A stretch of DNA of 64,000 bases from Candidatus Poribacteria bacterium (lineage in GTDB: Bacteria; Poribacteria; WGA-4E; WGA-3G). The stretch spans positions 124,001 to 188,000 of the forward strand of contig JAJEIE010000009.1 of assembly GCA_022827625.1 (NCBI GenBank). Reading direction: 5' to 3'. Below are positions 3,426 through 54,374 of this stretch, piece by piece. The notes under the pieces are model-generated. The model made no database searches and was not told the DNA's origin. It saw nothing but the letters and a program-made list of their open reading frames with translations. Made by a program: the position numbers and the translations under genes. How positions within the stretch are numbered: position 1 is the stretch's first letter; each line of letters begins with the position of its first letter.

Positions 3426-4007
3426 CTAATTCGCTTTAATTTCACCCCAAGTCGTCGTTAAATTCCCTTCTGGGTCGACAGGAAGTACAGTCTCTTCAAG
3501 GAAAATAGTCCACATGAGGACTGGATCCCCGATAACTTCGTCAATACCGAGCAGTTCCACTGTTCCGTCGAAGGGTTCATTGGATTTGTAGATGAAGTAC
3601 TCGGTTGGTGCGTGTGGGGCATCAAGCATCAGTATCTCGCCTGTATCGGTATACCCGTCTGTAAACCAGCCTTTCGGATCTTGACCGCGGTCTTCTGGAC
3701 GTGTGTGTCGGCTATCCCAAGCTTGATAGACGTACGCCGGTCGGTCGATGTTAAACGTCAATTTATAGTCCTGTCCGCCTGGGCAGTCCGCTGACGTGGA
3801 AACCTGCGTAAATCCGAGAAATTCTTTCGGAATATGCGTAATCGTATAGTCGCGATCGTGGAAAAATTTACCACCCTCTTCCAACTCAACAGCTTCATAG
3901 ACCCCGCCTTTATTGTCCTCTATCTCCGTTACCACCACTTGCTGTGCCAACACAGGCAACGCAGTTGCGATGAACAGGACAACTATACAAACATAAGCAC
4001 GTCTCAT
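3426..4007 (-). CDS. Secreted protein of unknown fold with C-terminal TTWG motif
   Basis: A 193-residue protein. The signal peptide 'MRRAYVCIVVLFIATALPVLAQ' is clear. The middle contains 'FNIDRPAYVYQAWDSR' and 'DAPHAPTEYFIYKSNEPFDG', which reads like a beta-sandwich of the kind attached to extracellular proteins, but I cannot name the family. It ends 'NLTTTWGEIKAN', the same terminal motif as the LamG protein at 16-813 despite no similarity elsewhere. It is transcribed toward the selenoprotein operon and away from the Dabb gene. Confidence 0.75.
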   Translation of the reverse strand: MRRAYVCIVVLFIATALPVLAQQVVVTEIEDNKGGVYEAVELEEGGKFFHDRDYTITHIPKEFLGFTQVSTSADCPGGQDYKLTFNIDRPAYVYQAWDSRHTRPEDRGQDPKGWFTDGYTDTGEILMLDAPHAPTEYFIYKSNEPFDGTVELLGIDEVIGDPVLMWTIFLEETVLPVDPEGNLTTTWGEIKAN

Positions 4008-26690: not shown

Positions 26691-27461
26691 ATGAAATCCG
26701 TTATCACCGTTCTTTCCGTCATTTTCCTGAGTCTTAGCGTCAATTCATGGGCATTAAATGATGATGAGGCATTGATGTTGTATTTCACTTTTGATGAAGA
26801 CGAAGGTGGCAAAGTGACAGATATAACTGGAAATAACATTGAAGGTTCGTTTGAAGGTGCAGTCTGGTCGAAAGATGGTAAAATCGGTGGTGCTGTCTAT
26901 CTTGAAAACAACCAGCAGTTTGTAGAGGTTGACGCAGTTCCCGAACTCGATATTACCGATGAACTGACGATTCAGGCGTGGTTTTTTCCTGAAGAATCCC
27001 AAGGCGACTCTAATTTGATGGGACGCAGGAGCGGGGCAAACGTGGGGGGTTATTGTCTCCAATGGAGCGCGCAGTTTACGGGTGCCCCGCAAATTGAGAC
27101 ATGGATCAACATCGGTGGATGGCAAGGCTCTCGCAATAAACAGACGATTAAACCGGCATTAGAGGAATGGCACCACGTCTCTTCTACTTTCGATGGAGAT
27201 ATGATTCGTCAATATATCGACGGCAAATTGGATGTCGAATTCGCGCCACCGAAGGGGAAAATTAATAGTATCGAGGTGGTTTTCCGCATTGGCAAAGCAC
27301 AAACGGGGTTAGACGGTATGGTTGGCTTGGTCGATGAGGTGGCTATCTATAACCGCGCCCTCTCCGTTGACGAGATTAACCAAGACATGGAAAACGGTGT
27401 CTACTTTGCTGTGTCCCCGAAGGACAAGCTTGCCACGACATGGGGCAAGTTAAAGATGTAA
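26691..27461 (+). CDS. Secreted LamG-domain protein with C-terminal TTWG motif (pair member 1)
   Basis: A 256-residue protein. Signal peptide 'MKSVITVLSVIFLSLSVNSWA', then a full LamG/concanavalin domain: 'LMLYFTFDEDEGGKVTDITGN' at the start, 'ELTIQAWFFPEE' in the centre, 'EWHHVSSTFDGDMIRQYIDGK' and 'VDEVAIYNRALSVDEINQDMENGV' at the end. It ends 'KDKLATTWGKLKM'. AAAAGGAG precedes the ATG. The next gene has the same architecture but a diverged sequence. Confidence 0.9.
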   Translation: MKSVITVLSVIFLSLSVNSWALNDDEALMLYFTFDEDEGGKVTDITGNNIEGSFEGAVWSKDGKIGGAVYLENNQQFVEVDAVPELDITDELTIQAWFFPEESQGDSNLMGRRSGANVGGYCLQWSAQFTGAPQIETWINIGGWQGSRNKQTIKPALEEWHHVSSTFDGDMIRQYIDGKLDVEFAPPKGKINSIEVVFRIGKAQTGLDGMVGLVDEVAIYNRALSVDEINQDMENGVYFAVSPKDKLATTWGKLKM

Positions 27462-27464
27462 TGG

Positions 27465-27560
27465 TTATCAGGTATCGATTGTCAGTTGTCGGTTAAGAGA
27501 TTTATTGTGGCTGGAACAGAGAACCCTATCGCCGCAAGTCTTTAGCCAAAAACTGACAAC
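27465..27560. repeat. Intergenic word-repeat hairpin
   Basis: 'ttatcaggtatcgattgtcagttgtcgg' on the left and 'ccaaaaactgacaaccag' on the right pair around a ~50-base core between the two LamG genes. Confidence 0.45.
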
Positions 27561-27628
27561 CAGAAAACTGTTTAAAGGTAGTAAGCGTGTGTTTTTCCGT
27601 CTATCTCTGTCACAAGGAGGAATGATCG

Positions 27629-28417
27629 ATGAAAACCGAAGTGTATCTAATACTATGTGTTTTTCTCAGCTTATCTATCTGCCAAGTCGGATTCAGTGCA
27701 GGTGGGAAGGGGAACGTGAAACAACTCGGCGAGCAACTATATGTCTGGCACTTCGACGAAGGCAAAGGGGATAAGACTGAAGATGAAACTGCCGGCTTGG
27801 TCGGTGAATTTAACGGCAATGTGAAGTGGGCTGAAGGCATTTCAGGGAGTGCCGTGGAGATGGCTGGCAAGGTGGGGAAAGCCGATTTTATAGAGGTTGC
27901 CCATTCCGACGAAGTGGATATGGACGAAGAGATTACGATGATGGCGTGGGTTTACCCTGAGGAACTCCCAGCAGGTGGTCAGGAGAATAAATTCACTATC
28001 TTCTTCAAGAACACCTATTATTTGCAAATCGAACCCGGGGACGGGAAACTCGCTTACTATTTTTATGACACGAATAACCCCGGCTACCATATCTCTGACG
28101 GTAAGGTGAAAGCGAAAGAGTGGAGCCATGTTGCCCTTGCGTGGGACGGGACCGAAGCCCGTTTCTACATCAACGGGGAATCTGATGGCAAAGCTATCGC
28201 GCAGAAGGGACCTGGACGGAGTATGCCGGATAGATCGTTGAAATTCGGTGGCGAGAATAATGGGTGTTGTCCGCGTTTCTTTCAAGGGAGGATCGATGAA
28301 CTGATGTTAGCCAACTATGCGCTCTCTGAGGGGGACATCCAGAAAATCATCAACGATACGCTTGATGTCTCTGCGCTTGGTAAGTTGGCAACGACGTGGG
28401 GTGATTTGAAGAAATAG
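27629..28417 (+). CDS. Secreted LamG-domain protein with C-terminal TTWG motif (pair member 2)
   Basis: A 262-residue protein with signal peptide ending around 'GFSAGG'. The LamG domain has 'YVWHFDEGKGDKTEDETAG', 'EITMMAWVYPEELPAGGQ', 'EWSHVALAWDGTEARFYINGE' and 'IDELMLANYALSEGDIQKIINDT'. It ends 'LGKLATTWGDLKK'. A strong AAGGAGG precedes the ATG. A stop-linked repeat and a terminator follow. Confidence 0.9.
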   Translation: MKTEVYLILCVFLSLSICQVGFSAGGKGNVKQLGEQLYVWHFDEGKGDKTEDETAGLVGEFNGNVKWAEGISGSAVEMAGKVGKADFIEVAHSDEVDMDEEITMMAWVYPEELPAGGQENKFTIFFKNTYYLQIEPGDGKLAYYFYDTNNPGYHISDGKVKAKEWSHVALAWDGTEARFYINGESDGKAIAQKGPGRSMPDRSLKFGGENNGCCPRFFQGRIDELMLANYALSEGDIQKIINDTLDVSALGKLATTWGDLKK

Positions 28418-53487: not shown

Positions 53488-54237
53488 TTAAAACCCTTTC
53501 AAACTACCCCACGTTTTTGTGAGTTTTCCTTTTGGTTTTACCGATAATCCACCCCTATCTGGGATACTGTCGCCAGTAATCATGATGTTATCGAAACGCG
53601 CTGTATGATTTGATAATCCCAAACCGGCATGACCTGTCGAAAAGTTAGGGAATTCATTTAGCGGTTCCGGAAGATCTCTGGGTTCTGGAACGCCTAGGGG
53701 ATCCAAAACCTGCTTCCCATTAATCCAAAAAGTAAAGAGATTTCCATGAACGCTCAACTTCAGATGAGACCATTGATTCAATTTCAACGACGGATGGCGT
53801 TTACTGCCAAGGAAAAGTGCTTTGTCGTCGTGCAAATTGCCAGCAAAACAACTTGCCCTGAATTCAGGTCTAAGTGCCGGGAAGGCCAGGTCACCAACTA
53901 CACACCACACCGCCCAGGTTCGCTTAACTCGTGCGGCAACAGCAATATTTCCGGGTCCATGTTTTTTCAGGGGTTTGACATCAAATTCAATAGTGTAGTC
54001 GCGCCATGTTTCATCGCCTATTGTGAGTAATCTTGTAAACCCTTCCAGACTTATTGCATGAAGTTCACTATCAATAACCTCCCAAGAACCGGGCACTGCA
54101 TCATGCTGGACAATTTCCTGCCACTTATTTAAGTCCTTATTATCAAACGTTTCTACAAAAGTACCTGCTAAGGTTGTGTCTGCTAAGGTAAGAGAGGTTA
54201 ACAAAAACAGGAGAACTCCAATGTTTACTGATGGCAT
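53488..54237 (-). CDS. Secreted concanavalin-like (DUF1080-type) protein with C-terminal TWG motif
   Basis: A 249-residue protein. The ATG at 54237 starts a clean signal peptide ('MPSVNIGVLLFLLTSLTLADTTLAG') 7 bases after GAGGT; the earlier in-frame start at 54306 would hide it. The body reads as a 3-keto-disaccharide-hydrolase/DUF1080 jelly roll ('FVETFDNKDLNKWQEIVQ', 'WRDYTIEFDVKPLKKHGPGNIAVAARV', 'WSHLKLSVHGNLFTFWINGKQV', 'GHAGLGLSNHTARFDNIMITG'). It ends 'PKGKLTKTWGSLKGF', the same terminal motif as four other secreted proteins. It lies between the peptide genes and the glycosyltransferases. Confidence 0.83.
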   Translation of the reverse strand: MPSVNIGVLLFLLTSLTLADTTLAGTFVETFDNKDLNKWQEIVQHDAVPGSWEVIDSELHAISLEGFTRLLTIGDETWRDYTIEFDVKPLKKHGPGNIAVAARVKRTWAVWCVVGDLAFPALRPEFRASCFAGNLHDDKALFLGSKRHPSLKLNQWSHLKLSVHGNLFTFWINGKQVLDPLGVPEPRDLPEPLNEFPNFSTGHAGLGLSNHTARFDNIMITGDSIPDRGGLSVKPKGKLTKTWGSLKGF

Positions 54238-54297
54238 GGGACTTACCTCAAATTGATGTTTGGCAGTTACAATAATACCTTTTCGACACACTAATAA

Positions 54298-54374
54298 TTG
54301 AGTCACTTCGCCTAGATCGCGTACGAACCAATCCGTGTTTCGGTTGACAACGGACCTAAGCGAAGTGATTTAGT
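54298..54374. repeat. Imperfect inverted repeat between the secreted-protein and peptide genes
   Basis: GTCACTTCGCCTAG and CTAAGCGAAGTGAT pair with two mismatches around ~45 bases. Possibly a processing or attenuation hairpin in the transcript of the peptide genes. Confidence 0.45.

Follow-up and report, generated by a model that had tools for sequence, protein, structure and literature searches.

A short C-terminal tag on unlike exported proteins of Poribacteria, a candidate phylum-specific sorting or docking signal

Why should several exported proteins encoded in one stretch of a Poribacteria genome end in nearly the same residues? Poribacteria, a phylum of bacteria not yet in culture, are known above all from marine sponges and are dominant in many of them. 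The window, by which we mean the whole stretch of 64,000 nucleotides that was analysed (G000:C33:124001-188000), belongs to a genome of 5.02 Mb in 41 contigs. A sequence-only reading of it had listed five near-identical terminal motifs on proteins with signal peptides, and all five are present, one or two residues ahead of the stop codon, each in a protein with an N-terminal signal peptide. On the forward strand, translation of positions 16-813 gives a LamG-like exported protein of 265 aa, whose tag together with its stop codon, VDPVNKLATTWGRIKRQ, occupies 760-813 (profile E 1.4e-8, G000:C33:124745-124804). Positions 26691-27461 of the same strand encode an exported LamG protein of 256 aa (PF13385 by Pfam) with the tag VSPKDKLATTWGKLKM and stop at 27411-27461 (profile E 3.3e-9), and positions 27629-28417 a LamG-like exported protein of 262 aa with VSALGKLATTWGDLKK and stop at 28367-28417 (profile E 1.3e-8). 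On the reverse strand, an exported protein of 193 aa from a family without a name (3426-4007, by translation) carries VDPEGNLTTTWGEIKAN and its stop at 3426-3479 (profile E 4.8e-9), and an exported 3-keto-disaccharide hydrolase/DUF1080-like protein of 249 aa (PF06439 by Pfam; 53488-54237), which starts at an internal ATG of the longer ORF 53488-54306, carries VKPKGKLTKTWGSLKGF and its stop at 53488-53541 (profile E 3.5e-7).

The bodies of these proteins had been described as unrelated, which holds in part: three are distant LamG homologues, as seen from the similarity of 26691-27461 to 16-813 (E 1.3e-17, match G000:C33:124055-124804) and to 27629-28417 (E 1.0e-15), and what stands is a division into three groups, namely LamG, PF06439 and one without a family. 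The latter, at 3426-4007, gave no Pfam match, and a 78% identical relative (locus L133) has the tag at its end too. Around the first of the tagged LamG genes, a PorV-family-like barrel left of the window (G000:C33:122814-123605, L389) stands head to head with 16-813, and the ORF at 824-1606, which encodes carboxypeptidase-regulatory repeats, stops 37 positions into an AhpC/TSA domain and may be truncated or frame-shifted.

Chance is excluded as the origin of the pattern, since TWGx[hydrophobic]K, searched at the DNA level, has 85 matches in the genome and two in the reversed control, and since 145 of 146 profile matches are C-terminal. The profile was built from 66 tails and gave at least 150 matches, at least 146 of them at E<1e-3 with a clear gap before the next at 0.01; it scored 150 of 229 first-look candidates, and the total of tags may therefore be higher. 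From about 150 tags in 5 Mb, we estimate that the tag is carried by about 3% of all genes here. The tag lies 12 residues or fewer from the stop codon in 145 of the 146 matches, mostly 2-3, and the sole internal one stands directly ahead of a type IX secretion (T9SS) tail. A signal-peptide-like start, called by a crude hydrophobicity rule, was found in 137 of the 145 tagged ORFs and in 136 of 430 untagged ORFs of 200-450 aa (32%; Fisher p 5e-44), which bears out the enrichment that the sequence-only reading had proposed to check and, together with the terminal position, leaves the motif absent from cytoplasmic or mid-protein settings. Eight tagged ORFs have no such start; two of them are cut by the end of a stretch and four are ORF pieces of 32-42 aa (L051, L068, L085 and L347) whose body probably lies in a different frame, most likely owing to a frameshift close to the 3' end of the tagged gene or to an assembly error. 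No lipobox was seen among the tagged proteins of the window's genome, which suggests that signal peptidase I processes them and that they carry no lipid anchor.

In this genome, the consensus tail spans about 15-16 residues and reads V-[ED]-[PA]-x-[GD]-K-L-[AT]-T-T-W-[GAS]-x-[LI]-K. The residue counts come from 145 tags selected by a regular expression that demanded W[GAS]x[ILVMF]K and excluded only one of the 146 profile matches. The first residue is V in 138 and otherwise I, followed by [ED] or S, P or A, any residue, and G or D; the middle consists of K (135, or R) and L (122), then A or T, T, T and W; after W comes G (103), A (36) or S (6), and the tag ends in any residue, L (85) or I (46), and K. 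This ending is also found when the motif plays no part in the selection, as all 30 LamG proteins picked by body homology end in W[GAS]x[LI]K. Between the last K of the tag and the stop codon lie 0-12 polar residues which vary in number and kind, indicating that the free end is not the conserved part. The T, G, L and K of the tag use all their codons and third positions vary freely, which argues that selection acts at the protein level and rules out a DNA-level element such as a repeat or terminator.

The tagged proteins are mostly small and lectin-like. The 141 full-length bodies fall into 32 BLAST similarity groups, of which the largest has 72 members, and about half are LamG; among 74 tagged proteins searched against Pfam, LamG was found in 40, with CBM9, Kelch, PD40, LTD, PF06439, dockerin, F5/F8 type C and others also present. 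AlphaFold2 folds 26691-27461 into a jelly roll (mean pLDDT 85.4, from 57 sequences) in which residues 242-256, the tag, form the sole segment under pLDDT 50, the helix drawn in the tag region being below that value. A fold search with this model returned an ordinary concanavalin-like jelly roll, with an arabinanase domain as the best match. For 53488-54237, modelled from a shallow alignment of only five sequences (mean 65.2), the tag residues 230-249 are at about 31 and among the least confident parts. AlphaFold2 and the presence of the tag on other bodies rule out that it is part of the LamG fold. As the tail is unstructured in AlphaFold2, the tagged proteins do not have a folded C-terminal domain in common, so that neither of the two observations that would have refuted the sequence-only reading was made. 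A PDB search with the tag profile gave no significant match.

Conservation limited to the ends of otherwise unlike exported proteins, proposed from the five proteins of the window, holds genome-wide and phylum-wide. The motif occurs in all 85 Poribacteria genomes examined, from 22 genera, with 4-119 matches each (median 73 versus 3 in the reversed control; 5896 versus 271 in sum), and G017 is the only genome not clearly above its own control. In the deep-branching G001, G002 and G004, which belong to other families, the tags fetched lie 0-3 aa from the stop codon, most of them on proteins with signal peptides and nearly all on proteins with hydrophobic N-termini. A scan of 84,980 species placed 111 of 115 stretches in Poribacteria among the matches listed, the other four being L124, L150, L172 and L181; this distribution and the homologues of window proteins at L101-L215 are what assigns the window's genome to Poribacteria. 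Of these, L172 was rejected as a chance ORF. Genuine-looking tags are found in L124, L150 and L181, on contigs filed under Pseudomonadota, Myxococcota and Thermoproteota; the genomes that hold them have 4-7 matches each with no enrichment, so that they are probably misplaced Poribacteria contigs. With the outsiders reduced to one chance ORF and three contigs in unenriched genomes, occurrence of the tag in other phyla was rejected for the matches listed.

These observations are consistent with the tag being a linear C-terminal sorting or anchoring signal of Poribacteria that is bound by one common envelope partner, a reading to which we assign a probability of about 0.5. Sec would first export a tagged protein and leave its tail exposed; a single partner, specific to the phylum and shared by all tagged proteins, would then bind the tail in the outer membrane or at the cell surface and so capture the protein there. 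Such a partner would read the internal 15-residue motif and not the free carboxylate, as is suggested by the 0-12 unconserved end residues and by the tags that stand before T9SS tails. None of the candidates tested as a partner (sprA and PorV-family neighbours) travels with tagged genes across the phylum.

The composite proteins, in which tag and T9SS tail follow one another, bear directly on where the tag may act. A pattern that joins WGx[IV]K to a T9SS tail behind it has matches in 52 of the 85 genomes and none in the control, on differing bodies and with deep branches of the phylum included. The K of the tag lies exactly 7 residues ahead of N[YF]PNPFNP in 28 of 30 composites examined, and in untagged T9SS tails, T/N at -5 and L at -3, counted from N[YF]PNPFNP, are invariant. 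In P. gingivalis, PorU cuts just ahead of the tail (PMC4560394); if, by analogy, a PorU-like cut fell near the T/N, the mature composite would have two residues behind the tag at its end, just as tag-only proteins do. The near-constant spacing thus looks as if the tag must lie near the mature C-terminus. Removal of the T9SS tail by a PorU-type protease would leave it at or near that position, from where it would act on final localisation, and it is probably this and not T9SS export itself that the tag serves.

The main rival, possible although unlikely, is that the tag is a sortase-like site at which a PorU-family (C25) transpeptidase would cut, for example between W and [GAS], and attach the protein to a glycan or lipid of the surface. 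A small residue (G, A or S) follows W in 145 of 146 tags, and this strictness fits the small-residue preference, X/(GSA)(VLI), of P. gingivalis PorU (PMC4560394). This is also supported by three PorU-like proteins in the window's genome (1688-2122 aa, below the model cut-off) and by the position of the tag in the composites, where PorU would act. However, the supposed leaving peptide has an invariant K and [LI] as well, there is no hydrophobic segment to retain a precursor, and most T9SS-tailed proteins have no tag. It is missing from 31 of 61 examined, in a set enriched for composites, and present on about 2 of 47 in the window's own genome, which rules out a general PorU recognition site.

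We regard as rather doubtful the proposal that the tag is itself an outer-membrane export signal, taking small proteins through the T9SS or another pore. The machinery for such a route is likely to be present in divergent form. Kamke et al. (2014) reported Por-type sorting tails in Poribacteria but no structural genes (PMC3909097). The window's genome encodes 43 or more tails that resemble those of T9SS, of the PNPFNPETW kind, and a SprA/Sov-like protein of 2257 aa (L277:8470-15243, G000:C31; TIGR04189 E 1.3e-42, below the curated cut-off); TIGR04189 matches occur in 84 of the 85 genomes, exceeding the curated cut-off in just one. The PorV-family model (PorV_fam) matches at 15 places in the window's genome, seven of which reach its cut-off, and one PorV-like gene directly adjoins a PorU-like gene. 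SprA-, PorU- and PorV-like proteins are thus all encoded, and Poribacteria likely possess a divergent T9SS core, as judged from these similarities; besides L277, the loci concerned are L377, L378, L379 and L380-L395. PorV-family genes adjoin T9SS-tailed or PorU-like genes at G000:C25:37186-38677, C31:11361-12922 and C30:331166-332842, which suggests dedicated cargo-shuttle pairs.

Besides these components, export by the tag is favoured by homologous bodies that bear either ending, such as tagged L035 and T9SS-tailed L230 (47% identity over 205 aa). Against it, known T9SS tails fold into domains of about 70-100 residues, for which the tag has no counterpart. The tag load is also uncoupled from the T9SS-tail load outside the window's genus, where the two numbers show no correlation (4 tags and 23 tails in G009, 52 and 13 in G001), and several of the 15 PorV-family places adjoin T9SS-tailed genes, not tagged ones. 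A link of the tag to PorV-family barrels was rejected on similar grounds, the barrels adjoining T9SS-tailed or PorU-like genes and not tagged genes, bar single cases. Three genomes from the genus of the window have a tagged gene directly upstream of sprA (L277:15695-17092, L313:6303-7061 and L325:5913-6701); this arrangement was seen only in that genus and not in the other genera examined, and a tag-SprA linkage was rejected.

A peptide for periplasmic chaperones, proteases or oligomerisation, which would hold tagged proteins together or serve quality control and do no sorting, seems improbable. The tag segment is short, disordered and amphipathic, and its excess hydrophobic moment at 160 degrees corresponds to a beta-strand-like periodicity, as such a peptide might have; an amphipathic helix was rejected, as no excess is found at the helical 100 degrees. 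Nevertheless, 32 unlike groups of exported bodies are not expected of a self-association peptide, and the terminal residues are not conserved, unlike those of C-terminal degrons. It is very improbable, and in practice refuted by the conservation pattern, that the tag lacks a function of its own and persists as a neutral remnant from a single ancestral protein end, duplicated along with the LamG superfamily that makes up about half of the tagged bodies. Relatives are about 50-60% identical in the tag versus about 28% in the body, W, K and V hardly vary although third codon positions are free, and the tag occurs on Kelch, PF06439, CBM9 and family-less bodies as well as in deep-branching members of the phylum.

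If the tag is a sorting signal bound by a common partner, the set of proteins that Poribacteria export, and probably expose on their surface, would be defined by a 15-residue pattern, with the same address on about 3% of genes, most with glycan-binding-like folds, and it would provide a defined bait for a new receptor or sorting enzyme. The T9SS core is of interest in its own right, in a phylum where the 2014 study had tails and no machinery (PMC3909097). Tentatively, the tag may belong to a second phylum-specific display pathway beside the divergent T9SS, either processed before G/A/S by a PorU-family enzyme or held by a receptor; the resulting coat could face the host or polysaccharides.

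The sequence-only reading knew of no described signal with this sequence, and we have found none that matches the tag: in those window proteins that were scanned, it lies outside every Pfam and NCBIfam match, and literature on the motif, LamG or T9SS in Poribacteria yielded nothing on it. Its comparison with sorting and anchoring tags stands as far as the conserved end on unlike exported proteins is concerned, but not for the membrane segment of LPXTG and PEP-CTERM or the folded domain of Por tails. Like the T9SS type A domain (TIGR04183/PF18962, the Por tail), the tag is a C-terminal signal on many unlike Sec-exported proteins, found in the same genomes and at times directly ahead of such a tail. 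It differs from this folded, PorU-cleaved domain of about 70-100 aa in having about 16 residues and no predicted structure, AlphaFold2 leaving it disordered immediately after the end of the LamG fold; neither TIGR04183/PF18962 nor a FlgD-like tail matched the five window proteins in NCBIfam, and T9SS-tail models are not among the top 25 Pfam families of the 74 tagged proteins. With the PEP-CTERM/exosortase and LPXTG/sortase signals, it shares a short conserved motif close to the C-terminal end, presence on many exported proteins and some basic residues thereafter, but the motif residues differ and just 0-12 polar residues follow in place of a transmembrane segment. In the surface retention model for T9SS type B CTDs, a PorP/SprF-like protein acts as shuttle and anchor (PMC9143113, PMC12618676), which resembles the retention by an outer-membrane partner modelled for the tag, although the type B CTD is a folded domain and the tag is not linked here to a PorP-like partner. 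Dockerin-cohesin serves as a working analogy for a C-terminal docking module on unlike extracellular proteins, but dockerins have calcium-binding repeats of about 60 residues that the tag lacks. The BAM-recognised outer-membrane beta-signal is likewise short and C-terminal and includes aromatic and hydrophobic positions; unlike its bearers, the tagged bodies are soluble jelly rolls and propellers and not barrels, and the last residue of the tag is not a conserved aromatic. With exported proteins (137 of 145 versus 136 of 430), a C-terminal position (145 of 146) and 32 body groups, it shares these general properties with sorting tags and is best filed as a phylum-specific variant of C-terminal sorting or docking signals.
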